This document shows, in pieces, positions 77 through 63,917 of a stretch of 64,000 nt of DNA. A program made the translations under genes and the position numbers. Every line of letters begins with the position of its first letter. Position 1 is the first letter of the stretch. The DNA comes from Endomychus coccineus (taxonomy: Eukaryota > Arthropoda > Insecta > Coleoptera > Endomychidae). Location of the stretch: assembly GCA_958510875.1 (NCBI GenBank), contig OY294067.1:139242046-139306045 (forward strand), given 5' to 3'. Below the pieces are notes generated by a model. That model was not told the DNA's origin. It searched no databases and worked only from the letters and a program-made list of their open reading frames with translations.

Positions 77-1327
77 TCATCGCAGTATGCGAGCAATCTG
101 TTTTAGGCTAGAATTGAAAATATCATATTTAGTACGAGTGTCATTGGTGTTATAGGCATGGCACATGCAAAATAATGAAGATAATTTGAGTATGTTAGTA
201 CGAGGAGTTTGGAGGTAGAAAGTATTTACAGACCGTGAGTTCAACCGAGGAACTAGGAAATTGATTCTTTCCAGTAGCATGAGGCAGTCAATCAGGTTGT
301 TGAGCAACTTGTAGAAACTGACCTGGAGTACATAATTATTTCTGCGAGAAAAGGAGGACATATTGAATCTATCTAACAGGAAAGAATTAGGAATACCCCT
401 GATAGGATAAAAACCGTCTATCCTGAAGGACAGGTATTTCAAAAAGCGGCGCTGAACAGATTCAAGGGCATCTATATGAACGGCATAACCAGGAAACCAA
501 ATCACAGATGCATACTCAAGCCGCGATCGCACAAATGTTATGAACAACAATTTGAGCGTGTCTATATCTGAAAAATCACGACAGCTTCGCACAATAAACC
601 CAAGTAGTCTGTTAGCAGTCTCCATCACAGACTCCAGATGAGGAATGAAGGATAGTTTGGGATCGAAAATTACGCCGAGGTCTTCATAGGTTGCTGGTCT
701 CTTAAGGATAGTACCACCCACGTTGTAATCAAATAAAGCCAAGTTGGTCTTATTTGTGTAAGACATAACGCAGCACTTGTTAACAATAACAGACAGCTTG
801 TTCGCTGAACACCATACAACCATCATATCAAGACTTCTCTGAAGTAGATAACAATCCAATGTAGATTTGATGACAAAGAACATTTCAAAATCATCGGCAT
901 ATAAAAGACTGAGTACACTTAGACCTATTGAAATATCTTTGACAAAGATGTTAAACAATAGTAGTCCCAAAATTGATCCTTGTGGGACTCCTGAAGGAGC
1001 AAGATATTCCACCGATCTCTGCCCAGTTACCACGACAAATTGCCACCTATCACTAAGATATGAGGCGATGGAAGATAGAAGTTCCACAGAGAAATCAATA
1101 TCATCAAGTTTACCTAGCAGAAGTCTGTGGTCAAGCCTGTCGAAGGCCTTGGATAGATAGGTATATATGACATCGACTTGGAAGCCGGACTCCATATTCT
1201 TAGCGATGTATTGTGTGACAGATACCAGGTTGGTGGATGTGGAACGACCCCTTACAAAACCGTGTTGTATATTAAGAAGACGTGAATGGACTTTGAAATA
1301 TACTCTATCGTAGATAAGAATCTCCAA
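77..1327 (-). pseudogene. Reverse transcriptase, palm to C-terminus (Jockey-like)
   Basis: This 416-residue open frame carries the core of a non-LTR reverse transcriptase. Visible blocks are QHGFVRGRSTSTN (residues ~21-33), the LSKAFDRLDH block with the first catalytic Asp (~58-67), SGVPQGSILG (~112-121) and the catalytic YADD box (~143-146). Then come the thumb motif DLGVIFDPKLSF and a C-terminal LLFITFVRSRLEYAS segment typical of Jockey elements. The YADD Asp pair is intact. The upstream fingers part lies in another frame at 1411-1884, so the open frame is a fragment of ORF2, not a full gene. The Met at 1327 is not the native start. Expressed function is unlikely. Confidence 0.85.
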
Positions 1328-4724: not shown

Positions 4725-5017
4725 ATTCTTCCAATATTGGTCTGCAACCTTTTTCAAGTACCTCATAAATCGTTACATCTGATTCGAGAGTAAACACACA
4801 ACGTAATAGATAGTTTTGATCTTCAGTCGTTGAGACACTATATCAACATGCGCTTGTATATTATAAGAATATTATTGAATAGTGGATTCTTGTTATATTT
4901 TGAACTTGAACAATTAATCTGGTACAATTTCGATTATTCGTTGTTCTGTTCGTTTCGGCGACTCTGTGCTAATATAATTAGTTTTTAAGAAATCCCGTTT
5001 TGGACATGATAAGTCTT

Positions 5018-5041
5018 CTGATGATGGTCGTGAGACCTAAA
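5018..5041 (+). ncRNA. Degenerate hammerhead-like core (Penelope-type terminus)
   Basis: CTGATGA is followed by a short stem (GGTC, loop GTGA, GACC) and then TAAAC in place of the usual GAAAC. Flanking TCTT and AAAGA could extend pairing. Penelope-like elements are known to carry hammerhead ribozymes in their terminal repeats. Here the conserved G after stem II is replaced, so it is probably inactive. Its strand is opposite to the nearby Penelope-like frame, so it may belong to another copy. Confidence 0.35.
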
Positions 5042-5445
5042 CGTACGTAAAGACGAAAATATCAAACAAAGTGTTAAAATGACCTATTGCCCGAGAATTT
5101 TATATATAATTCATACTGGGTCAAGATTCTTTATTTTTTATTTTTTAAATAAACCTTGAAGATTTTACAGTGTGATGTATTGATTCAGTCGTTTTATTTA
5201 CTTATAGCAAAACGTAATTTCAAAAGTAGTTCAAAATTTCTTTTTCTTCGAACGAAAGTAATCTTATTACATTTGTTTGAGAAGGAATGGTTCCTTTTGC
5301 AATTTCCTTACATTATGCTCGAATTCAATGTATAATATAATGATTACTTCGAGAAGTAATTTGCCTCTGCACTGTGCTAGGGAGGAGCGTGAAGTTGGCA
5401 GCCAATATTTAGCAGCCAAATTACCGAAGATTACCGAATATCTAT

Positions 5446-5818
5446 AGACGTCCCATGTTTATTTCTGCAGGTCTGAAAAGGAATTATATTAAATTGAATG
5501 TTACGGAACCATCTTCGATCTTAAATTCTTAGGAATTGGAAACACTTTCAGTTTGGTAGCAAGTTGTTTGTGATGATAGCGTTATCGAAATTATTATGAA
5601 TGAATGGAAATAATTTCAACTCAAAGGAGAAAACTTATTATCACTCTTATATTGAATAAAAATATCAAATACAGGGCAGATATTTGTTCCTGACACAAGG
5701 GGCCGTCAAAAAGATCAACATAATTTAAAGCAATGAGAACAATTTGATTCAAAAGAACACCAACTACTTTCTGATATGACCTTAAGAATCCAAATTTTAT
5801 AGAATACACAATAGAAAT
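5446..5818 (+). repeat. Left outer arm of Foldback terminal inverted repeat
   Basis: Unique (non-satellite) part of the left inverted terminus; reverse-complement partner is 10563-10931. Matching landmarks include the start agacgtcccatgtttattt, aaaacttattatcactctta and caactactttctgat. The arms differ by scattered substitutions and small indels, so they are related but no longer identical. Confidence 0.85.
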
Positions 5819-8150
5819 ATCACAACGAATTCAAGAAAAAATCGAAAATCTAAGAAGGACACGACCTGTCACTTTTATTTTTATACATAAAATGAAGTTA
5901 TCATTGGGTAGCATACAACAAGAAAGATAGGTCAGTGAGGTTGAAATAACTGAATCAATTCCAGAAAAAATCGAGAATCTAAGAAGGACACGACCTGTCA
6001 CTTTTATTTTAATACATAAAAATCAAGTTGTCATTGAGTAGCATACAAAAATAAAGATGGGTCAGGGACGGGCCGTCAGAGAAGTTGAAATAACTGAATG
6101 AAAAAAAAAATCGAAAATCGAGGAAGGACACGACCTGTCACCTTCATATTGAGACAGGAAAATCGAGTCGTCATTGAGTAGCATAAAAGAAAAATATGGG
6201 TCAGTGACGGGCCGTCAGAGGGGTTGAAATAACTGAATGAATTCAAGAAAAAATCGAAAATTGAAGGACACGACCTGTCACCTCAACTTTCATACATAGA
6301 AATCAAGTCATCATTGAGTAGCATACGAGAAAAAGATGGGTCAGAGATGTGCCGTCAGAAGGGGCAAAATATTTGAATGAATTCAAGGAAAAATCGAAAA
6401 TCAGAGAAATACACGACCTGTCCCTTCAATTTTTATACACAAAAATCGAGTCGTCGTTGAGTACTAGCATACTAAAAAAAGATGAGTCAGAGGGGTTGAA
6501 ATAGCTGAATGAATGTATTAAAAATCGAAGAAGGACCCGACCTGTCACTTTTATTTTTAGACAGAAAAATGGAGTCATCATTGAATAGTATACGAAAGAA
6601 AGATGTGTCAGTTACAGGCCTTCAGAGGGGCTAACATAACTGAATGAATTCAAAAAAATCGAGAGTTAAAGAAAGACACGACCTGTCACTTTGATTTTTG
6701 TACCAACAGATCAAGTCGTCATTGGGCAGCATACGAAAAAAAGATGGGTCAGTGACGGGCTGTAAAAGGGGTTGGAATAACTGAATGAATTCAAGAAAAA
6801 ATCAAGAGTTAAAGAAAGACACGACCTGTCAATTTAATTTTTGTACCAACAGATCAAGTCGTCATTGAGCAGCATACGAAAAAAAGATGGGTCGGTGACG
6901 GGCCGTATGAGGGATTGAAATAACTGGATGAATTCAAGATGAATTCGAAAATTGAAGAAGGACTCGACCTGTCACCTCAATTTTCATACATAGAAATCAA
7001 GTCGTCATTGAGTAGCATACGAAAAAAAGATCGGTCAGAGACGTGCCGCCAGAAGGGGCAAAATATCTGAACGAATTCAAGGAAAAATCGAAAATCAAAA
7101 AAAAGATGGGTCAGTGACGGGCCGTTTAAGTTAAAATACCTGAATGAATTAAAAAAAAAATCGATAATCGAGGAAGAACACGACATGTCACTTTTGTATT
7201 AAGGAAGAAAAATTAAGTCATCATTGAGTAGCATACGAAAAAAAGAGGAGTCGGTGACGGGCCGTCAGAGGGGTCGAAATAACTCAATGAATTCAAGAGA
7301 AAATCGAAAATCGAAGAAAGACACGACCTGTCAATTTTATTTTTGAACAGAAAAATCAAGTCGTCATTGAGTAGTATACGAAGAAGAGATGGGTCAATGA
7401 CGAGCCGTCGGAGAGGTTGAAATAACTGAATGAATTCAATCGAAAATCGAAAATTTAAGGACACGACCTGTCACTTCCATTTTTGTACAGGAAAATCAAG
7501 TCGTCAGCGAGCAGCATATGAAAAAAAGATGAGTTAGTGACGGGCCGTCAGAGGGGTCGAAATATTTCGGTGAATTAAAGAACAAATCGAAAATTGAAGA
7601 AAGACACGACCTCTCACCTTAATTTTTATACATAAAAAATATGGGTCAGTGACAACAAGTCAGAGGGGTTAAAATAACTGAATGAATTCAAGGGAAAAAT
7701 CGAAAATTGAAGTAGGACACGACCTGTCAATTTCATTTTTGAACAGAAAAATCAAGTCGTCATTGAGTAGCAGACGAAAAAAAGATGGGTCAGTGACGGG
7801 CCGTCGGAGGGGTTGAAATAACTGAATGAATTCAAGCGAAAATCGAAAATTTAAGAAGGACACAACCTGTCACTTCCATTTTTGTACAGGAAAATCAAGT
7901 CGTCATTGAGTAGCATAAGAGAGAAAGATGAGTCAGTGACGGGCCGTCAGAGGGGTCGAACTATCTCGAATTAAAAAAAAATCGAAAATCGAAAGATGGG
8001 TCAGTGACGTGCCGTCAGAGAGGTCGTAATAACTGAATGAATTTCAAAAAAAATCGAAAATCAAAGAAAGACACGAGCTGTCACTTTAAGTTTCATACAT
8101 AATAATCGAATCGTCATTGAGTAGCATACAAGAAAGATATAGGTCAAGTT
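5819..8150 (+). repeat. Left subterminal satellite array, ~16 units of 120-150 bp
   Basis: The unit reads gaattcaagaaaaaatcg, then a near-constant acgacctgtca box, then tcaagtcgtcattgagtagc, then gggtcagtgacgggccgtca, then ggggttgaaataactgaat. The acgacctgtca box or a one-base variant recurs near 5861, 5980, 6130, 6270, 6413, 6538, 6679, 6829, 6966, 7182, 7323, 7462, 7607, 7720, 7862 and 8072. Spacing is mostly 120-150 bp with some partial units. Open frames on the minus strand here are by-products of the repeat, not genes. Confidence 0.9.
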
Positions 8151-9945
8151 AGCACCAGATAATTCTCTCAATCCTCTCTGAGCACATTCAACTTTCTCAT
8201 TGTGATGTTTGTTCGTTAGAAGTGTACAAACATCAAGGACAAAGCTATCGAACGTATCAATGTTTTTAATTAAAATGCCATTATATCTTCGAGAATGTTT
8301 TTTTGGTTAACATTGAGGGCCAGTTTGTCCACATCTGTAGACACCATCTTCATGAAGTGAGCGCAGCATAAGTGAACTCCAACAATATTATTGTTTGCCT
8401 TTATGTTGCCATCATTCTGTACCAAATCGTAACATATTTGTAAGTATTCTTTCAACGTACAACTATTACAAGTTTTACATATCGCGTGGAGATTTGCGAA
8501 AGAAGTCACTTACGACGCCAGAAAAAACTGGCCAATACCTAGTTGTTTTCTTCGCAGAAATAGCAAAAGTCACTGAACAACTTGAAAATAGTGTTAGCGT
8601 CGTGTGTGGAGGAAACCATGGAGAATATTGGGTATATCCGTTTGGATATTTCTATCTTTATTACAGTCGTATAGAGATATATTCTTTTACAATGACGTGA
8701 AGGTTTCCTGATGATTCCTCCTGTTGCATCGAAGTGAATGAATGGTAGCCTTTTCGAATTTTTTTGCGATTTCAAAACGTCCAATTGTTCAAGACTATAG
8801 ACTTTCACGCTGAACGGCAGACATATCTCTTTGATATACTCTGGATGATCTACTTGCATTAGTATTAAGTCAGTTAGATCATCCTTATCACGATCCAAAT
8901 CCCCTGATGCTTCCGATCTGATTTTTCTCAAAGTTGAATCTGACTTGATTTTTTGCAAATTTCTCCCTTTTTTCAAAATTTTCGAGCTAGCTTTCATCAG
9001 TGTCTCTTTTTTATAATTGAAAGATTTTTCGCGCAACAGTCTCTTCTTCAATAAGCATCTCTCAATACCCCTAACGTGGCTTGTCAGATGAGACGGATGA
9101 TTGTAATCGAGTGAAGTACTAAATATGTGAACCGTTTTATGATTAATGCGAATTTTGAAATTTTTACACTGTCCGTTATTGTGTTTGCACAAATCATAAA
9201 TGTTGAACACGTCATCCTTCCTAAGGTATTTCACATATTTGAATACTATCACGCATTACACATTATTGACGTATTTTGATATACCTCTTTTGAGAATGCC
9301 AGGATAATATTTCACATTTAGTTCACCATTCATGCAAATCGTTTCCCAAATTTTATCTTCAATTTCGAAAATACCTTCTAGATAATTACAACTTTGATAT
9401 GAGAGCTTTACGGGTCTATCAGTAGTGATATTTTTGGAATTGAAGGGTAAATTTTCAGATGTGTTTTCGGAACTCGGAAGATTGAAAAATGTTTTAGGGA
9501 TCTGTGCATTTTCTGGAGACATTTTCGGAACATCGTTGGATGGCGAAAATTCAAACCCACAAGAAGATGCTTCAACAATAAAAAAAAATTCTCTCACCAT
9601 AAGTGGTGTTTCGAACATTTGAGACGATAAATTTGCCTAGCTCTCATATGTCATACATGTTACTGGAAAATCGTTATTTTTTTCACCCAAACAAATAATA
9701 CTTTCCTTCAAACACCCTAGATCTTTTGTTCAAATGACAAGTTGTTTACTTTCGTTTAAGTTCCCTGATATATTATATTGCCCATTTTTCTTTGGTGTTG
9801 AACAATATTCAATGGAATTGTCGTTGAAAGAATGTTCTTCCATTATCGGTAATGTTTTATTTATTTTCGAAATCATTGAATTTTTCAGTAATCTCCAAGA
9901 GTAATTGATCCGTTTTATTCTTTATTGAATTTTTCATGCTGAATT
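8150..9945 (-). pseudogene. NOF/MULE-like transposase of the Foldback element, broken
   Basis: The coding core between the two satellite arrays reads on the minus strand in pieces: about 9620-9945 (starts MKNSIKNKTDQ or MEEHSFNDN), 9256-9618, 8539-9252 and 8150-8509. The third piece has a Cys/His-rich region (CKHNNGQC ... HPSHLTSHVRGIERC), which may be a zinc-binding DNA-recognition domain. It is followed by LPFIHFDATGGIIRKPS with a probable first catalytic Asp, and YPIFSMVSSTHDANTIFKLF. The last piece has LKEYLQICYDL and GVHLCCAHFMK, a C..H motif as in MULE transposases. Sequence with the second catalytic Asp seems lost at 8509-8539. The match to NOF proteins is from memory of the family, so moderately sure. 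Confidence 0.65.
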
Positions 9946-9989
9946 CTCTACAAAGTCTAGCATAAACAGAAACATCGCTTCGGTAAGAT

Positions 9990-10562
9990 TTTATGTACAA
10001 AAATAAAAGTGACAGGTCGTACCATTCTTCGATATTCGATTTTTTCTTGAATTCATTCAGTTATTTCGACCCCTCTGACGGCCCGTTACTGAACCATCTT
10101 TTTCTTGTATGCTACTCAATGAAGACTTGATTTTTATGTCTAAAATTGACAGGTCGTGTCCTCCTTCTATTTTCAATTTTTTCTTGAATTCATAGAGATA
10201 TTTCGACCCCTCTGACGACCCGTCACTGACCCATTGTTTTTTCGTATGCTACTCTATGACGACTTAATTTTTCTGTATGAAAATAAGAGTGACAGGTCGT
10301 GTCCTTCTTCAATTTTCGATTTTTTCTTGAATTAATTCAGTTATTTTGACCCTTCTGACGGCCCGTCACTGAGCCATCCTCCTCTGGTATGCTACTCAAT
10401 GACGTTCCGATTTTCTGCCTTAAAATAACATTGACAGGTCGTGTCCTTCTTCGATTTTCGATTTTTTCTTGAATTCATCGAGATATTTCGACCCCTCTGA
10501 CGGCCCGTCACTGACAGGTCGTGTCCTTCTTCGATTTTCGATTTTTTCTTGAATTCATTGAG
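9990..10562 (-). repeat. Right subterminal satellite array, ~5 units, inverted
   Basis: Same unit as the left array but in reverse complement: tgacaggtcgt boxes near 10009, 10148, 10290, 10432 and 10513, with the ttcttgaattcat and cctctgacggcccgtcactg blocks between them. The last unit is shortened. It is about a quarter the length of the left array. Confidence 0.9.
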
Positions 10563-10931
10563 ATATTTCTATTGTGTATTTTATAAAATTTGGGCTCTCA
10601 AGGTCTTATCAGAAAGTAGTTGGTGTTCTTTTGATTCAAATTTTCCTCAATTGCTTTAAATTATGTTGATCTTTTTGACGACCCTGTCTGCAATGAACAA
10701 ATATCTGCCCGGTATTTGATATTTTTATCCAATATAAGAGTGATAATAAGTTTTCTCCTTTTAGTTGAAATTATTTCCATTCTCCATAATAATTTCACCA
10801 TCATCACACACAATTTGCTATCAAACTGGATTTGTTTCCAATTCACTAGAATTTGAAATTGAAGATGCTCCCGTAACATTCAATTTAATATAATTCCTAT
10901 TCAGACCTGCAGAAATAAACATGGGACGTCT
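10563..10931 (-). repeat. Right outer arm of Foldback terminal inverted repeat
   Basis: Reverse complement of 5446-5818, ending ...cctgcagaaataaacatggg and gacgtct at 10931. The next bases on the minus strand already belong to the Gypsy fragment, so the outer boundary is sharp. Confidence 0.85.
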
Positions 10932-10934
10932 TAT

Positions 10935-11501
10935 CAACGTTTGAAGTTGAGTATTTTGAAACTCAGTCAAAATGGTGGAATCGGTTAAATGCTCGATGGC
11001 GTTTACAAGGGGAGGCGCGTTCGAGAATTCTCACTTATCTACCATGAGAATAGGCCCAATTAATTTCCAAAAATCCTAACCTGAAATAAGAAAGTGTGGC
11101 AATTCCGGAACCACCATAACTTCCACTAACCGGGTTATCCCTTCTAACGTGATTGGCAAATCACACGTTCCAATTACTGTAAATTTTTGATCATTCGCAA
11201 CCTCACAAGCAATGTGACTAGTTGGGTTCAATATGATACCCATGCTTACGATTACTTTCCATCCACGAGCCCCCAAAACCGTACGACTTGAACCAGAATC
11301 TAACAGTCCTAAAATCGATTCTACCAAAATCTCTACATTCAAATGAGGCCGGTCGTCATTCTGTGCATGATGTAAGATATAATTCAAAATAGGTAAAATG
11401 TCTGATGTCGGATTACTATTCTTTGAGACGCAATCATTCCGACTGTCTAAGAGCGTTTGTTCCCGTTTCCTTGTCTCCTGTTTTTGGAACCGTTGGGACA
11501 T
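10935..11501 (-). pseudogene. Gypsy-type aspartic protease and start of pol (Gypsy-3)
   Basis: The open frame at 11076-11501 overlaps the gag end by about 55 bases in another frame, as for a gag-pol frameshift. It carries the retroviral-type protease motif LLDSGSSRTVLG (catalytic DSG) and GTCDLPITLEG, ending ELPHFLISG. After one stop, reading continues with DFWKLIGPILM, and in another frame LTEFQNTQLQTLI, the spacer normally found before the reverse transcriptase. The sequence then stops abruptly at the Foldback end (10931). The RT is absent from the other side of the Foldback element, so pol was truncated here. Confidence 0.75.
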
Positions 11502-12331
11502 GTATTAATAGTATATCCTACTTTTTTGCACTTGAAACAAACCTTTCTCCTTGGCGCTAAGCAACCTATAGCTCGATGACCTGGTAAATTACAATTAAAA
11601 CAGAGCTGACTACTAGTATTACGGGACGTAGAGGCAGAAGGAATGGCATTATTCGAGACACCGAGCACATCTAATTGTTCAGTTACCTCCACGTAAGCAA
11701 GATCTGGCTCCAACATATTCTTACGTGGTGGTAACGAGAAATTCTCCAAACTCTCTCGATTATCTTCCAATTTTTTACCTAATTTTTGCAATTGTTCAAT
11801 AGAAGTTACGTCAATAAGTGCGAGTTGAGATTGGTAAAAGGGCGATATGTTCCGCAGTAGAACCTTGAGTTTCACTTCTTCCGTAAGGGTGCATGTTAAT
11901 CTCCCAAAGAGAGCCGACATGACAGCTAAGTATATTCCCATACTTTCGTCCGGACGTTGAGTTCTCTCCTTAATTTCCTCAAAAAGTCTCTCATTATAAT
12001 CAGGAACTTGAAATTCCTCTCTCAGCCGTTTGACTAAACCGTCCCAAGTTGTTACATGTTCACGGGCGTCCCTATACCAATATAAAGCTTTCCCCGTGAA
12101 AAGATCTATCCCTGAATCATACAAGTCCATTTTAGTAGCATGACGAGCCACTCTGAGTTCTTCAACTCTTTCTAATAAAGCATTCACTGACATGCCCTTC
12201 CTTTCACCAGAAAATTTAATATCCCATTTACTGATCGGATGCGAATAGTGGCGGAGCGGCGCGGTACGAGGCGTAGATGTTCTAGCACCATCTCTCTGAT
12301 CGCTATCACTGTCTGAACTCAATATTTCCAT
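11447..12331 (-). CDS. Gag polyprotein of Ty3/Gypsy-type element (Gypsy-3)
   Basis: 294-residue intact frame. Residues ~30-160 form a retrotransposon gag (capsid-like) domain with WDIKFSGERKGMSVNALLER, ALYWYRDAREHVTTWDGLVK and RLREEFQVPDYNERLFEEIK. Near the C-terminus are two zinc knuckles: CFNCNLPGHRAIGC, canonical C-x2-C-x4-H-x4-C, and CFKCKKVGYTINTC, in which the His is replaced by Tyr. The tail is basic (KNRRQGNGNKRS). The Met at 12331 begins an acidic Ser/Asp-rich leader (MEILSSDSDSDQRDG) and is the natural start. The frame survives, but the element has lost most of pol. Confidence 0.85.
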   Translation of the reverse strand: MEILSSDSDSDQRDGARTSTPRTAPLRHYSHPISKWDIKFSGERKGMSVNALLERVEELRVARHATKMDLYDSGIDLFTGKALYWYRDAREHVTTWDGLVKRLREEFQVPDYNERLFEEIKERTQRPDESMGIYLAVMSALFGRLTCTLTEEVKLKVLLRNISPFYQSQLALIDVTSIEQLQKLGKKLEDNRESLENFSLPPRKNMLEPDLAYVEVTEQLDVLGVSNNAIPSASTSRNTSSQLCFNCNLPGHRAIGCLAPRRKVCFKCKKVGYTINTCPNGSKNRRQGNGNKRS

Positions 12332-12904: not shown

Positions 12905-13184
12905 GAGATGTCCCATACTTCGAACAACGCTAATCCTGGCGACAGCCGGTCGTTGTGGAGGATCTCTACCCAGCATCTCAAAACTGGTTGTAGAACATAA
13001 ATCTTCAAGGAGGTATTAGGCTGAATCGTAATATGCGTCCGTCGGAGATGTCCCATACTTCGAACAACGCGAATCCTGGCGACAGCCGGTCGTTGTGGAA
13101 GATCTCTACCCAGCATCTCAAAACTGGTTGTAGAGCATAAATCTTCAAGGAGGTATTGGGCTGAATCGTAATACGCGTCCGATG
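12905..13184 (+). repeat. 140-bp tandem duplication
   Basis: 12905-13044 and 13045-13184 are adjacent direct copies, both beginning gagatgtcccatacttcgaa and ending in a ctgaatcgtaat.cgcgtcc / atgcgtcc variant. About half a dozen differences separate them. No coding content recognised. Confidence 0.9.
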
Positions 13185-16600: not shown

Positions 16601-17262
16601 GCTATTTTGAGTGTCTATACAGATTCCGCTTATCGGAGATTACTTAGGGGAAATGATAGAGCATCAATGTCGTTAGGTTTACCCCAGCTTACCAAAAAGG
16701 AAGGAATTCTTTAATTTTTGTAACATTATTTATCAATCATAGGCGTGATCGAGCGCAAAACCGATCACTGTTCGGGGTTGTGCTAATTAGTCCTCCATTT
16801 ATTTCAACTCTCTAAAGAGAACATGGACAAGAACTCGCTCGCTGGCGAAGGGGGAAGATCGAGCGACATTGATAATTTCTCAGGTTCCCACTTGGGGTCA
16901 ACCTGAACTTGACATCCTTTTCTAAATCTATGCTATCTTGAGTGTCTATACAAATTCCGCTTATCGGAGATTACTTAGAGGAAATGATAGAGCATCAATG
17001 TCGTTAGGTTTATCCCAGCTTACCAGAAAGGGAGGAATTCTTTAATTTTTGTAACATTATTTATCAATCATCGGCGTGATCGAGCGCAAAACCGATCACT
17101 GATCGGGGTTGTGCTAATTAGTCCTTCATTTATTTCAACTCTCTAAAGAGAACATGGACAAGAACTCGCTCGCTGGCGAAGGGGGTAGATCGAGCGACAT
17201 TGATAATTTCTCAGGTTCCCACTTGGGGTCAACCTGAACTTGACATCCTTTTTTGAATCTAT
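16601..17262 (+). repeat. 331-bp tandem duplication
   Basis: 16601-16931 and 16932-17262 are head-to-tail copies, each starting gctat(t/c)ttgagtgtctata and ending ctatgctat. They differ at only about ten positions. A third copy is only begun (gctatc at 17263). Each unit holds an imperfect palindrome, gatcgagcgcaaaaccgatc. Confidence 0.9.
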
Positions 17263-18490
17263 GCTATCATTCCTATAACCAAATTTTGGATTAATTTTAT
17301 AAACGTTCGTTGTCGGTTAATGTATCATTTTTTTTTGTTAATTTTGTTTCATTCAATATACATTTATTATTTAATTTGATTTACGAGTTTAACTGGAAAT
17401 CCCTAATCACCTCTCAGCGAATACGTCCTTCAGAATTTACACTTGAATAGATATAAAGATATAAGTATAGGTAATTGTACGAGCCGGTCCTTCGGAAGGG
17501 ATCGCGGTCTCATAGTCAAAAACAGCTTCTAGGTGGGCTGAAATATACGCCTAGTGGTGGCAGCTTTTAAAGAACCTTAAGGGTACACGGATCAACTAAG
17601 ATCTCTGATACCCGAACAGGTTCCAACAAACAATTTTAAAAATTCATACAACACGTCGATGAGGTATTAATGCTACCTGAAATGATACCCAGCCGACTGT
17701 TACAAGTTCAAGTGTTACAAGCAGTGGGATAGGATTCCGAACCTATTCACTTATTTGGGAAATATTAAATCTAGAGCAATCTGGAGTAAGTTCAGATTTA
17801 TTATTACAAAAACACAACGCTCGGCGGAATGTTACAACGAACTATTAAATTATTTTTGCTGGTTTCTTATTACGGGTCAACGTTCCAAACGTACACCCCT
17901 TGGCGTCTAAGTTTTTTGAAGACCATCTGTTCGAGATGTAAACAACTGTATCACGCGAATAGACATCCTGATTTGAATTATATTCTAGAACTTCCGATTG
18001 TTTAATTGTTGCAAACTATCCCGACTAGGTCAAATACAGGACTTAATTATTCAACGTGATTTTATGAAATTGTTGTTCATTTAGACTAGGTGTAAATATT
18101 TTTTTTTTGTACAAATATTTTCCATAATCAATCATTCCCTTTAATAAACTGTATATATATAAGCATCTGCGTTTTTCTGGTGAATCAATTAACTCATATC
18201 TGTCAGATTTCATTCAACGGGAAATATACTACCCTGGACCACTCATCCCGGTGGTGACCCTTTCAAATTTTCCGTTTAACAAGAAAACTTATCTTTTCCC
18301 GAGGAAGGCGATCGCACTTGCATAACTTCATTTTGGTTAAAGAACACTTCAAATTTTGCATAGGGGACAAAACGTTCTCGTACTTATTAGGATTATAAAA
18401 TACCTTCTCATAATCTTATATTATGGCAAGAACTGGAATTTTGAATTTTGTGTAGATACCGCCTTTACATTGTACACCTCTGATTTTTTC
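17263..18490. other. Non-coding stretch with an LTR-like end near 18090-18262
   Basis: No coding frame. Around 18140-18262 there is AATAAA (ttaataaactg), a TATA-like tatatataag and then ggtggtgaccc, which resembles the primer-binding site of mag-type Gypsy elements (compare 58810). This could be a fragment of an LTR and its PBS on the plus strand. Confidence 0.35.
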
Positions 18491-18767: not shown

Positions 18768-19138
18768 TTAAAGTCTCAGATCTTGTGACATTGGCTCACT
18801 GAAAATCACAGAAGTGTCATCTACAAATTGAATCAATATTTGTTGTACTTCTGCTAATAGGTCATTAATGTATAGTAGGAATAGCACTGGTCCTAATATG
18901 GAGTCCTGTGATACACTACGTTTTATGAACTGATAAGAAGAAGTTTGTACAACTCCGTTATTATGTTTTTCTACTATCATTTGCTGTCTGCACGTCAAAT
19001 ATGATTCAATGAGCTTTAGAGAATCGCCCATAACGCCATCCATTTTTGTCACTAATATGTCATGTCTTACACTATCGTACGCTTTAGATAAGTCTAAGCA
19101 CATAATCAGTGTACTATTCTTTTCATTTAAAGATCTCA
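18768..19138 (-). pseudogene. Element H reverse transcriptase, palm portion
   Basis: The minus-strand frame contains STLIMCLDLSKAYDSVRHDI (first catalytic Asp), SVSQDSILGPVLFLLYINDL, where the usual PQGSVLGP block reads SQDSILGP, and QFVDDTSV (the FVDD catalytic box). The frame is cut at 19138 by the insertion; codons before that point are found again at 21514-21711 because of the target duplication. The region downstream of FVDD is missing: the frame stops within about 20 residues, so the thumb is deleted. Non-functional. Confidence 0.8.
18941..19138 (+). repeat. Left copy of ~198-bp target site duplication
   Basis: Starts aagtttgtacaactccg and ends tttaaagatctca. It is identical to 21514-21711 except for one base seen (gtcactaat here, gtcagtaat there). 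It belongs to element H (RT palm) and brackets the I-like insertion. Confidence 0.9.
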
Positions 19139-21238
19139 TCCGCAGGACAGCTAATAACAGACATACAAAAGACACTTTCTGCCAATGATTATCTTGGAGC
19201 TCTATTTTTTGACATCGAACAAGCTTATGATTCTGTTAATTTAAACATTCTTGAATCTAAATTGCGTAATATTCAAATACCACCTCAAATTGCTAGAAAC
19301 ATAGTGAACTTGTACAGAAATAGAAAGCTATATATAAAAACGAACGACGGATCTAAATTAGGTCCCAGATATGTTTCAGCTGGCTTACCACAGGGCTCAG
19401 TCCTCAGCCCTATTCTATTTAATATTTATACCAACGATTTGGTCACATTTGGTAGATTTATATTTGTTCAATACGCCGATGATATTGTTGCTTACTGCAT
19501 TGAAAGGAGCATGGAAAACTGTCACACGTCTCTTAATATCTGTATGAAAATTATTTTAGCCTGGGCTAACAAAAAACAATTTAACTTATCCGCTAATAAG
19601 ACCTGTGTAACTATTTTCACGAGGCACAGAATTCCAGCGTACAACAGTCTTAAATTGGCCAATCAAGACATTCGATATTGCAAGGAAGTTAAATATCTCG
19701 GTTTCATTTTGGACACAAAGATGTTATGGACTCCACATATCAAATACTTAATTTCCAGATGTGAAAAGGCACTCAATATCTTACGATTAGTCACAAAATT
19801 GTCTTGGGGAGCAGATATAAGTACAGCTCTATTATTATATCGGACCACTATACGTTCTATTATCGACTATGGCTGTATTTTTTATGAATCTTGCAACAAT
19901 ACCATGCTGAAAAGATTGGAATGTGTACAAAATAAAGCTTTACGTATATGTTGTGGAGCCATGATTTCCACCCCAATTTGTGCCTTACAGGCTGAGTGCA
20001 ATGAATTACCATTAACTCTACGTAGACAATTCCTTGCGTATAAATTCGTTATTAAACTGCGAGCATCATTTGATGAAGAACTGAGTATTAGAATAACAAA
20101 TTTATGTACGGATAACCTGACAAGTTCATATTGGAAAAACCGAAATTCTCCTCCTTGTGCACAAGCTGTTGAATCAATGGGTGACATATCACAATTTTTA
20201 TTTAATAACAGCTGCTATAATTATTTTTGGGGACCCTACAAGCAAATATTGCTAGATATCCCTGTCATTCTACCTAGCTATTCTAAGATAGATAACTTGA
20301 ACCATAAAATATTACTCCAAGAATTGGAACATTACGAAAATTTTAAAAAAATCTACACAGATGGCTCAAAAATGCCTGAATCAGTGGGTCTCGCTATTTA
20401 TATTCCCGATGATAATCATACAATAAATTTTCGACTATGTAAATTTTCTTCCATATTTACTGCTGAGGCTATGGCGCTATTACAAGCTTTGAACTATTGT
20501 CAGCGTTGTGTAGCTAAAGAAACGATTATATTATCAGATAGCAAAAGCGTATTGAAATCATTAAAAAACGTTTACCGTAAGAGTTCGCCCCTTATTCTAA
20601 TGATAGTCCGGAAATACATGGAATTACTTGAACAAAATTATAGTATTATTTTTGTTTGGGTTAAAGCGCATTGTGGAATAAAGGGAAATGAAAAGGTTGA
20701 TCTGTACGCAAAGCAAGCCACCAATTCTGAAAACTATCTACATAAAGTCACACCACACAGTGATTTCATCTGCAACTACAAATCAGAGATTAGGAGAACA
20801 TGGATATTACTTTACAAACAGCAAAATCTGCGAAAACCTACAAACTATTTTTTGATTCATCCAGAAATTCCAAGAAAATCATGGTATCACAAAACGTTAC
20901 AATTGCCAAGAAAAATATACACCACTATCGTCAGATTGAAATTTAATCATGGTCGCTTTCCTGCACATCTAAATTATATTAAAATACTTCCCACAAATCT
21001 GTGTGAATGTGGCGAAGTAGGTGACCTTAATCATTTGTTTTTTAATTGTCCGCTCCATCAATTGGAAACTGCAACCTTAATAGAACAGTTAAGGCCGTAC
21101 AACTTAAATTACCCGTTAAATATAAACTACTTGCTAAGCACTCAAGACATAAGCTTATACCAACTGCTGTATAAATTTGTTGTTTCTGCTAGGTTAGATA
21201 TTCAGTATTTGTGTAACCTCCCTCTCAACCTATGTTAA
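19139..21238 (+). CDS. Reverse transcriptase-RNase H (I/R1-like ORF2, 5'-truncated)
   Basis: About 700 residues open without a stop. RT: LGALFFDIEQAYDSVNLNIL (first catalytic Asp), SAGLPQGSVLSPILFNIYTN, QYADDIVAY (catalytic YADD), and VKYLGFILDTKMLWTPHIKY. RNase H in the second half: KKIYTDGSKMPESVG (Asp), AEAMALLQAL (Glu), IILSDSKSVLKSL (Asp) and WVKAHCGIKGNEKVDLYAK (final Asp). C-terminal zinc-binding motif CECGEVGDLNHLFFNC. The presence of RNase H points to the I/R1-type branch. The native N-terminus (endonuclease) is absent; codons upstream of 19139 belong to the target. Stop at 21236-21238. The intact frame and 1-base TSD divergence suggest a recent insertion. Confidence 0.88.
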   Translation, partial: SAGQLITDIQKTLSANDYLGALFFDIEQAYDSVNLNILESKLRNIQIPPQIARNIVNLYRNRKLYIKTNDGSKLGPRYVSAGLPQGSVLSPILFNIYTNDLVTFGRFIFVQYADDIVAYCIERSMENCHTSLNICMKIILAWANKKQFNLSANKTCVTIFTRHRIPAYNSLKLANQDIRYCKEVKYLGFILDTKMLWTPHIKYLISRCEKALNILRLVTKLSWGADISTALLLYRTTIRSIIDYGCIFYESCNNTMLKRLECVQNKALRICCGAMISTPICALQAECNELPLTLRRQFLAYKFVIKLRASFDEELSIRITNLCTDNLTSSYWKNRNSPPCAQAVESMGDISQFLFNNSCYNYFWGPYKQILLDIPVILPSYSKIDNLNHKILLQELEHYENFKKIYTDGSKMPESVGLAIYIPDDNHTINFRLCKFSSIFTAEAMALLQALNYCQRCVAKETIILSDSKSVLKSLKNVYRKSSPLILMIVRKYMELLEQNYSIIFVWVKAHCGIKGNEKVDLYAKQATNSENYLHKVTPHSDFICNYKSEIRRTWILLYKQQNLRKPTNYFLIHPEIPRKSWYHKTLQLPRKIYTTIVRLKFNHGRFPAHLNYIKILPTNLCECGEVGDLNHLFFNCPLHQLETATLIEQLRPYNLNYPLNINYLLSTQDISLYQLLYKFVVSARLDIQYLCNLPLNLC

Positions 21239-34299: not shown

Positions 34300-34398
34300 C
34301 AGTTTTTACTTTGCTTTCCGTAAAAATTTTATAAAATTATGGCTCAAAATTTCACTAACACTGAAATGGTTAATATCTCGGTAAAACACGAATAATAA
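34300..34398 (+). repeat. Left inner inverted repeat of copy 1, containing transposase start codons
   Basis: The block tttactttgctttccgtaaa ... atggctcaaaatttcactaa on the plus strand is the reverse complement of 35280-35345, where the true transposase start lies. On the plus strand the ATG at 34339 opens an 18-codon frame that ends quickly. Confidence 0.85.
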
Positions 34399-34439
34399 AA
34401 ACAATAGAAATGGGGAAACGATGTGATTATTTAGGAAAA

Positions 34440-35319
34440 ACAAATGCTGAATACACAAATTAATTCGTTTCAAGAAATTGGATTGAACTCTGGCTACTAC
34501 TTCAGGATCATTCTTCAATAAATCCGCTCCATGATTAATTCGTTGCAACAATTCCTTTCGTGTGTTTAATGGAGCTGCATAAACTTTCGACTTCAAAGCG
34601 CCCGATAGAAAGAAGTCGCAGGGCGTCAAATCAGGGGAGCGGGCCGGCCAGATCACTGGTGCATCGTGTCCTCTACCTATCCAGCGATCTGGATATTCCG
34701 CATTCAAATGTCGCCTCACAGCTAATGTGAAATGAGGAGGTGCACCATCATGGATAAACCAGGCCACGACGAATGTGTAAGGGCAAGTTTTCCAACAGTT
34801 CAAGTAGCCTTTGTTCCAAAAAGTTCAAGTAGTTCTCCCCGTTCAATCGATCACATCTCGTGAAAGTATCTTCGTCCGTGAACAGAATTCTTCTACAAAA
34901 ATTGGGGTTTGCGTTTTGTCTTTGGACAATGAGCCGACAGAAATCTAGCCGATGACCTGGATCCATGGGCAATAAGTCTTGAACTGTTTTAATATGATAG
35001 GGATACAACAGTTCTTCTTTCAGTACATTATGAACTAATGATTTTGAGGCTCCAATACGAAGTCCCAAACGTAGTGTGCTTATCCCAGGTTCAGTTTCAA
35101 CCGCTTCCAGGATCGCTTCTTCGAGCTCTAACGTCCTTCTTGTCCGTCTGCGTCCGGTTTCTCTGCGATTTGCTTCAAATTTGCCAGTTTCGCGAAGGTT
35201 TGCCGATTTGGAATTCTGCGATGCGGATATCTTTCCCTTCTCCGGCCATTGCAACGGCAAAGTCCATAAATCAATAACATATCAACCATTTCAGTGTTGG
35301 TGAAATTTTGAGCCATCAT
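34440..35319 (-). pseudogene. Mariner-type transposase, frameshifted and internally deleted
   Basis: Starts MAQNFTNTEMVDMLLIYGLC (ATG at 35316; MM from 35319). After a frame change come TRRTLELEEAILEAVETEPG, STLRLGLRIGASKSLVHNVL (helix-turn-helix region) and RRILFTDEDTFTRC with the first catalytic Asp. Then a deletion joins directly to DRLNGENYLNFLEQRLLELL. After a second frame change: WFIHDGAPPHF (second Asp), WPARSPDLTPCDFFLSGALK (third Asp), 43 residues between the two. A Trp usual after DFFL is Ser here. The C-terminus is lost in a deletion near 34450. Confidence 0.85.
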
Positions 35320-62881: not shown

Positions 62882-63917
62882 CTAAGGCATCAATTGTTCG
62901 AAATGTTGCCCATTTTCCTGAATACACAAATTAATTCGTTTCAAGAAATTGGATTGAACTCTGGCTAGTACTTCAGGATCATTCTTCAATAAATCCGCTT
63001 CATGATTAATTCGTTGCAACAATTCCTCTCGTGTGTTTACTGGAGCTGCATAAACTTTCGACTTCAAAGCGCCCCATAGAAAGAAGTCGCAGGGCGTCAA
63101 ATCAGGGGAGCGGGCCGGCCAGTTCACTGGTGCATCGTGTCCTCTACCTATCCAGCGATCTGGATATTCCGCATTCAAATGTCCCCTCACAGCTAATGTG
63201 AAATGAGGAGGTGCACCATCATGGATAAACCAGGCCACGACGAATGTGTAAGGGCAAGTCTTCCAACAGTTCAAGTAGCCTTTGTTCCAAAAAGTTCAAG
63301 TAGTTCTCCCCGTTCAATCGATCGGGTATAACGGTAGGGCCAATAATAAAGTTATCCACAATTCCAACCCAAACATTGATTTTAGTTTGATACTGAAAAT
63401 ATGTAACTTCCGTTTCATGAGGATTTTCATCAGCATGGAAATGTTCATTATGGAGGTTAAAAAGACCACATCTCGTGAAAGTATCTTCGTCCGTGAACAG
63501 AATTCTTCTACAAAAATTGGGGTTTGCGTTTTGTCTTTGGACAATAAGCCGACAGAAATCTAGCCGATGACCTGGATCCATGGGCAGTAAGTCTTGAACT
63601 GTTTTAATATGATAGGGATTTCAGTACATTATGAACTAATGATTTTGAGGCTCCAATACGAAGTCCCAAACGTAGTGTGCTTATCCCAGGTTCAGTTTCA
63701 ACCGCTTCCAGTATCGCTTCTTCGAGCTCTAACGTCCTTCTTGTCCGTCTGCGTCCAGTTTCTCTGCGATTTGCTTCAAATTTTCCAGTTTCGCGAAGGT
63801 TTGCCGATTTGGAATTCTGCGATGTGGATATCTTTCCCTTCTCCGGCCATTGCAACGACAAAGTCCATAAATCAATAACATATCAACCATTTCAGTGTTA
63901 GTGAAATTTTGAGCCAT
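62882..63917 (-). pseudogene. Mariner-type transposase, near full length, frameshifted
   Basis: From MAQNFTNTEMVDMLLIYGLC (ATG at 63917) to the stop after ENGQHFEQLMP (62882). Helix-turn-helix region LELEEAILEAVETEPG / LGLRIGASKSLVHNVL; catalytic domain LFTDEDTFTRCGLFN (Asp 1), TKINVWVGIVDNFIIGPTVI, WFIHDGAPPHF (Asp 2), WPARSPDLTPCDFFLWGALK (Asp 3, 43 residues after Asp 2). The transposase would cut and paste the element at TA. Three frame changes: after NRQTFAKL, at the 14-base deletion near 63620, and after LPLHIRRG. The first and last are shared with copy 1. Confidence 0.88.

Follow-up and report, generated by a model that had tools for sequence, protein, structure and literature searches.

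A defective foldback transposon of probable Rehavkus type in the beetle Endomychus coccineus, and the differing satellite arrays of its relatives

Introduction

What kind of mobile element consists of inverted arms, opposed satellite arrays and a gene between them, and can the copy at one locus of the beetle Endomychus coccineus still move? We addressed this question in a stretch of 64,000 nucleotides of contig OY294067.1 (assembly GCA_958510875.1; C1:139242046-139306045, hereafter the window), together with searches of the genome, which comprises 906 Mb in 129 contigs. The copy in the window is dead, as its transposase is broken and its right terminus is lost, and it is very probably a defective member of a Rehavkus-type DDE transposon family in this insect genome.

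Structure of the element in the window

The foldback element at 5383-10931 has outer inverted arms and inner opposed tandem arrays, with a minus-strand gene remnant between the arrays (Table 1). Alignment showed that the left and right arms are 88% alike across 369 bp, and the inverted segment pairs 5446-5577/10800-10931, 5602-5734/10650-10782 and 5734-5871/10512-10649 are 89%, 92% and 92% identical, respectively. Together with the opposite orientation of the two 143-bp arrays, this agrees with an earlier sequence-only reading of the locus. That reading gave the extent as 5446..10931, of which the right end stands, whereas the left end was set 63 bp short. In 23 of 24 arm-end loci, ~60 bp of shared end sequence continues outward of the arm start, although it is diverged in some and shortened in L007; because the left side of the window carries this outward piece, the left end is 5383 rather than 5446. 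Only one of the 24 loci lacks this piece, namely the right end of the window copy itself, which terminates at 10931. On this side neither the terminal motif nor the left target duplication was found, and no second copy of GTGCTAGGG was found in the window.

A gypsy-like retroelement fragment begins directly at this boundary, and among 40 matches to 10932-11331, 34 (the window itself included) begin at its first base. A nested insertion of the transposon in the gypsy-like element was considered and rejected, as the 1.2-kb continuation of another copy matches the window only over 59 bp at the junction. The other half of the gypsy-like element is not beside the left end; therefore, the right end was probably lost in a deletion or rearrangement, which seems to have removed the last ~64 bp of the element, its second duplication and a portion of the retroelement at once.

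Table 1. Features of the foldback element and its right neighbour (window coordinates).
Feature	Position	Strand	Basis
Presumed left 9-bp target duplication, GTGCTAGGG	5374..5382	.	Adjoins conserved terminal motif
Left outer arm, including conserved ~64-bp terminus (5383-5446)	5383..5813	.	Terminus shared by 23 of 24 loci at the arm end; two further transposase clades have a similar one
Left tandem array, 143-bp unit, ~16 degenerate copies (by length)	5814..8147	+	Repeat comparison
Transposase remnant, residues 306-720 of the 1540-codon frame of L061, with stop and frameshifts	8276..9528	-	tblastn, open frames
Weak N-terminal transposase remnant, residues 110-147, 35% identity	9878..9997	-	tblastn
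Right tandem array, ~4 units, orientation opposite to left	9989..10569	-	Repeat comparison
Right outer arm without terminal ~64 bp	10570..10931	.	Arm alignment, arm-end loci
Fragment of a gypsy-like retroelement outside the transposon, with gag-like frames and others that look protease-like by eye	10932..12331	-	Genomic matches; PF03732 just under cut-off

The gene remnant was delimited by tblastn with the protein of an intact relative, L061, as the query. The recovered segments cover residues 306-633 (53% identity), 634-645 and 646-720 (58%), and weakly residues 110-147, spread over three frames with a stop. Beyond residue 720 no tblastn match was found within the window element, such that the E motif and the entire C-terminal half, including the PHD region, are gone. 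The sequence-only reading had proposed one central gene with FDATGG and C..H motifs and a coding core still together. Both motifs are indeed present in minus-strand frames, but FDATGG, which holds the first catalytic D, lies within the open frame 8542-9255 (-), whereas the C..H motif (GVHLCCAHFMK) lies in a separate frame, 8273-8509 (-), and the second acidic (D) motif sits at a frameshift. The core is thus no longer together, and Pfam and PDB sequence searches with the window frames gave nothing usable. A member of the same family, L063 (C2:77.3 Mb), shares 89% DNA identity with the window across 1573 bp and has broken transposase remains scattered over residues 9-1527 (tblastn), indicating that the family once had a whole gene.

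Dispersal and target duplications of the family

A genome search with the arm yielded 68 matches, many of them array pieces, and copies lie on several contigs, in line with the expectation that the arms belong to a dispersed family. Both ends were compared for six elements by matching the 9-mers next to the terminal motifs. Four of them have 9-bp duplications, within the 8-9 bp that had been anticipated: two exact (9/9; CAATAATAT and TGATTTGTT) and two near-exact (8/9; AAAAAATGG/AGAAAATGG and ACATTGTGA/ACATCGTGA). When 9-mers from these loci are paired at random, the probability of at least 8 identical positions is 0.0006. Among the seven elements examined, the complete relative included, no duplication was found for two, namely the window copy and L020/L009; the latter is probably not one element, as its ends are 32 kb apart and of the same type. 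L006/L010 is a second right end of one left end and was not counted separately. In addition, the right ends L008 and L010 (C1:177.217-177.219 Mb) lie 1.6 kb from each other and share their flank sequence, apparently because end and flank were duplicated together at this place.

A 1,662-bp copy at C1:100976040-100977701 has an exact duplication, both arms and six unit matches. Nothing in it matches the coding part of the window element, and it is a deletion derivative without the gene. The unit alone as the query gave 183 genome matches. By a rough count from the matches listed, with unit and arm matches scored for the best candidates only, these fall in 16 places: nine with an arm match, two with a transposase match nearby (C3:81.56 and C1:105.22 Mb) and five with neither (C1:302.03, C1:104.89, C2:145.99, C3:81.60 and C11:0.75 Mb). 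Short copies that pass for plain satellites, as the earlier reading foresaw, therefore do occur.

A complete relative with a multidomain protein

One relative is complete, spans 11.8 kb and is flanked by an exact 9-bp duplication, AGGAAATGA. Its unique arms of 256 bp differ at 1 of 256 positions, and its arrays contain about 13 and 23 units. It encodes a single protein, 58% identical over the longest frame of the window copy, in which a DDE core is combined with a PHD finger (PF00628, 5.6e-6 in L061, above its cut-off), a YqaJ nuclease, an Ulp1 protease and a weak PHD-like second finger. Fold prediction of one relative revealed a DDE transposase core with an RNase H fold. Among NCBIfam models, the only match of L061 and P0005 was to a lambda-exonuclease family model, below its cut-off, and P0015 had none. 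Only four of the 31 homologues are named, from Acanthoscelides, Gonioctena, Phaedon (80% identical) and Ceutorhynchus, all of which are beetle genera.

One might instead suppose that the locus is no transposon at all and that a satellite array was simply inverted around a host gene. The absence of a second target duplication from the window copy would fit such an origin; nevertheless, copies on several contigs share the same termini, target duplications and both arms, and a complete relative exists in multiple copies. The duplications and the complete 11.8-kb copy refute this explanation, to which we give next to no credence.

Several further features were seen around L061 and its relatives. 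A 94-bp repeat with ~2.5 copies lies just upstream of the transposase frame (L061:7391-7646), and the same repeat of the L061 clade occurs in L032, L033, L034, L035, L037, L042, L044 and L057. A dispersed repeat (87%) is shared by 5000-5105 of the window and L061:8439-8542, and is also found directly beside the cut right array of a relative on C3. P0015 is a distant relative of 1324 amino acids (27%) with no Pfam match at 0.1, the C-terminal part of which looks, by eye, like a ubiquitin-specific protease.

Assignment to Rehavkus and comparison with other foldback elements

The arms of Drosophila Foldback (FB) elements are made of 10-, 20- and 31-bp repeat units, and only some FB copies contain a gene. 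The sequence-only reading had taken the window element for an FB/NOF relative, which is not supported. Autocorrelation of the window unit peaked at 143 and 140 bp and revealed no 10-, 20- or 31-bp sub-period (0.301 at 31 bp, compared to a mean of 0.281 with a standard deviation of 0.025), so that the unit differs from that of FB in both length and structure. The family is best matched by the published account of Rehavkus, both candidates being compared by description rather than by reference sequence. Membership in Rehavkus accordingly rests on anatomy.

In the excerpts of the literature on which these comparisons draw, Rehavkus is an outgroup to the Mutator-like elements (MULEs) at the root of MULE trees, known from Repbase only; it occurs in arthropods and annelids, and has 9-bp duplications, terminal inverted repeats (TIRs) of 26-400 bp, one open reading frame with a PHD finger and a minisatellite before the 3' TIR (PMC6446971, Dupeyron et al. 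2019). Repbase later assigned it to MuDR (PMC4455052). The present family shares the 9-bp duplication, the single open reading frame with a PHD finger and the minisatellite beside the TIR; its TIR is also long and its host an insect. Compared to Rehavkus-1_TC, which has 164-bp units in its inverted termini (PMC10218199), the unit here is 143 bp. Moreover, the complete relative is 11.8 kb long and carries YqaJ and Ulp1, which the excerpted Rehavkus descriptions do not mention.

Some observations weigh against this assignment. Two of the four target duplications in the family contain a mismatch, and for one of these (L007/L005, ACATTGTGA/ACATCGTGA) the left end was shifted 13 bp inward in hindsight. 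The left arm of the window family, 431 bp including the terminus, slightly exceeds the 26-400 bp of Rehavkus (the unique arm of the complete relative has 256 bp), and arrays lie on both sides here, whereas the excerpt places the minisatellite before the 3' TIR (PMC6446971). No significant Pfam transposase profile was found for the core, the weakest of hints being PF21056 (ZSWIM1-3 RNaseH-like; in 2 of 27 proteins, best 0.055) and DDE_Tnp_IS1595 (0.16). The MULE profile expected by the sequence-only reading, whose absence it had named as a ground for refutation, did not appear either: no protein scanned matched a MULE Pfam profile, and for 27 proteins at E-values up to 5 the 25 families displayed, out of 36, included none. 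The fold prediction still yields a DDE core.

Structural similarity search using Foldseek gave the P element as the best match (3.6e-4). In a second structure comparison, P element, ISCth4 and Hermes are close together, so that MULE is not favoured by the fold; NOF and eukaryotic MULE structures were not among the 50 rows compared, an absence that carries no weight. A P-superfamily foldback element, similar to Galileo, is nonetheless highly unlikely: no THAP domain was found in 16 proteins scanned singly, a PHD finger is present instead, and the duplications are 9 bp, whereas those of P-type elements are shorter.

That the element is a true FB/NOF relative after all, such that NOF and Rehavkus belong to a single lineage and foldback MULEs like this one in insects form a single family, appears unlikely, if less so than a P-type origin. 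The architecture is the same, with long arms, inner tandem repeats, a gene in some copies only and 9-bp duplications, and FB4 has 9 to 10-bp duplications and ~700-bp TIRs (PMC8277862). The 143-bp units without the 31-bp sub-period argue against it. No homologue bears the name NOF, a point of little weight as only 4 of 31 homologues are named.

Other known systems share some of these features. Tetris of Drosophila virilis is likewise a foldback element with tandem satellite units inside inverted ends; its ~220-bp units also form satellite arrays, and its duplications are 8-10 bp. However, its authors report no coding copy in the excerpted text, whereas a coding relative exists here, and in Tetris 37 bp are common to unit and outer arm, an overlap not found here (PMC4079207). 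Tm1 (PMC3169594) and Muta1 (PMC5225508) are coding foldback MULEs with 8-9 bp duplications and repeats in their TIRs, Tm1 also having asymmetric terminal motifs, so that coding capacity in a foldback element is in itself no novelty. They differ in their repeats of ~14 and 12 bp and in transposases of 496 and 504 amino acids, for which the excerpts mention no PHD, YqaJ or Ulp1. Among other superfamilies, ISL2EU encodes YqaJ in a second open reading frame (PMC9179366), and a paper on Ginger is listed under PHD and Ulp1 (PMC2836005). They resemble the present family in that a DNA transposon carries an accessory nuclease, or PHD with Ulp1, whereas here all domains share one open frame with the DDE core. 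We found no report of a transposase that combines YqaJ with PHD or Ulp1 in a literature search outside Repbase entries, which is weak evidence of novelty.

Satellite arrays across transposase clades

A tree of 57 rows, with relatives fetched as loci only, sorted the sampled copies of the genome into seven sets; six protein ids (P0002, P0003, P0004, P0029, P0030 and P0031) were excluded beforehand, and so were best matches of fewer than 180 columns, L063 among them. Tandem arrays lie beside the gene in six of the seven sets, and the unit length falls within 142-150 bp in five of these six. The unit is 143 bp in the window set, 142 bp in the L061 set, 150 bp in the L064/L046 set and also in L073, 146-147 bp in L066, 144 bp in L060/L067, and 176 bp in the L052 set (L071). 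Outside the tree, L074 repeats a 147-bp unit and L072 a 176-bp unit. Arrays flank the gene on both sides in the window, L061, L062, L063 and L066, and inversion on the two sides was observed for only three sets, those of the window, L061 and L066.

The six unit sequences are mutually unalike (15 pairs, 100 shuffles each); for the best pair, C150-E144, 2 of 100 shuffles were as good, which is unconvincing. Unit A has no similarity to its own outer arm (83 of 100 shuffles as good), and unit B scored 24 against the L061 arm, with a shuffle mean of 19.6 and a highest shuffle of 28. By contrast, the outer terminus of the window is 77% identical to that of L061 across 64 bp and 76% to that of the 150-bp set across 51 bp; for the sets with 146- and 144-bp units, the fetched sequence ends within the arrays. 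Thus the terminus is conserved, shared in three clades where it was reached, and the satellite sequence is not. Judged from sequence, the terminus is the likely site of the transposase, and the arrays may be structural or neutral.

These similarities in layout suggest, tentatively, a satellite-making lineage, the deep clades of which keep the terminus and the inverted arrays, replace the satellite sequence, hold the unit near 142-150 bp and seed new satellites from their arrays. We consider this possible though doubtful. Within such a lineage, the arrays would work through length or structure, by nucleosome-sized phasing or by pairing of the arms with help from the fused lambda-type nuclease, rather than by sequence-specific binding of the transposase. 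Several observations blur the picture: the seventh set, L050/L065, has no array within 8 kb (L065); arrays were present in 4 and absent from 6 of the 10 blind 1.6-kb samples taken next to further relatives; only one flank of L064, L067 and L071-L074 was seen; the 176-bp clade lies outside the range, as does the 164-bp unit of Tribolium; and the arrays of L059 reach 213-228 bp. At the latter locus, a transposase relative, the arrays of one flank are of 228 bp and those of the other of 213 and 134 bp.

Other features of the window

Several features of the window lie apart from the element. A frame of 709 amino acids at 19109-21238 (+) contains reverse transcriptase (6.4e-27) and RNase H (3.2e-13) domains, by which it is part of a non-LTR-type retrotransposon. 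A reverse transcriptase frame of 416 amino acids lies at 77-1327 (-) (RVT_1, 2.8e-16), with more retroelement-like frames by eye up to 2943. Similar sets of broken frames at 34306-35260 (-) and 62882-63581 (-) look, by eye, like pieces of a mariner-type transposase; three of the four pieces were scanned and had no Pfam match at 0.001. Two-copy tandem duplications, 96% alike, are found at 12905-13181 (140 bp) and 16601-17268 (331 bp).

Proposed mechanism and significance

We propose that a protein of the L061 type would bind the conserved terminus, cut, and re-insert the element with a 9-bp stagger. The nuclease might process the ends or help the arms to anneal, the protease might remove SUMO-type silencing marks, and the PHD parts might target chromatin, whereas turnover of the arrays may come about by unequal exchange between the arms, or by copying of one from the other. 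The window copy cannot make this transposase and could be moved only by the enzyme of a relative; with its right terminus lost, it is not easily moved even so.

As a class, the element is ordinary; what is of interest is the multidomain protein, along with the replacement of the satellite from clade to clade. For FB and Tetris, the excerpted accounts give no known enzyme (PMC8277862, PMC4079207), and the 11.8-kb copy, which is complete, looks young and has its protein entire, is a test object for the workings of such foldback transposons. Several clades in one genome with unrelated satellites of nearly one length bear on the origin of satellite DNA, and intact relatives with satellites of their own point to one route by which new satellite DNA arises and spreads.
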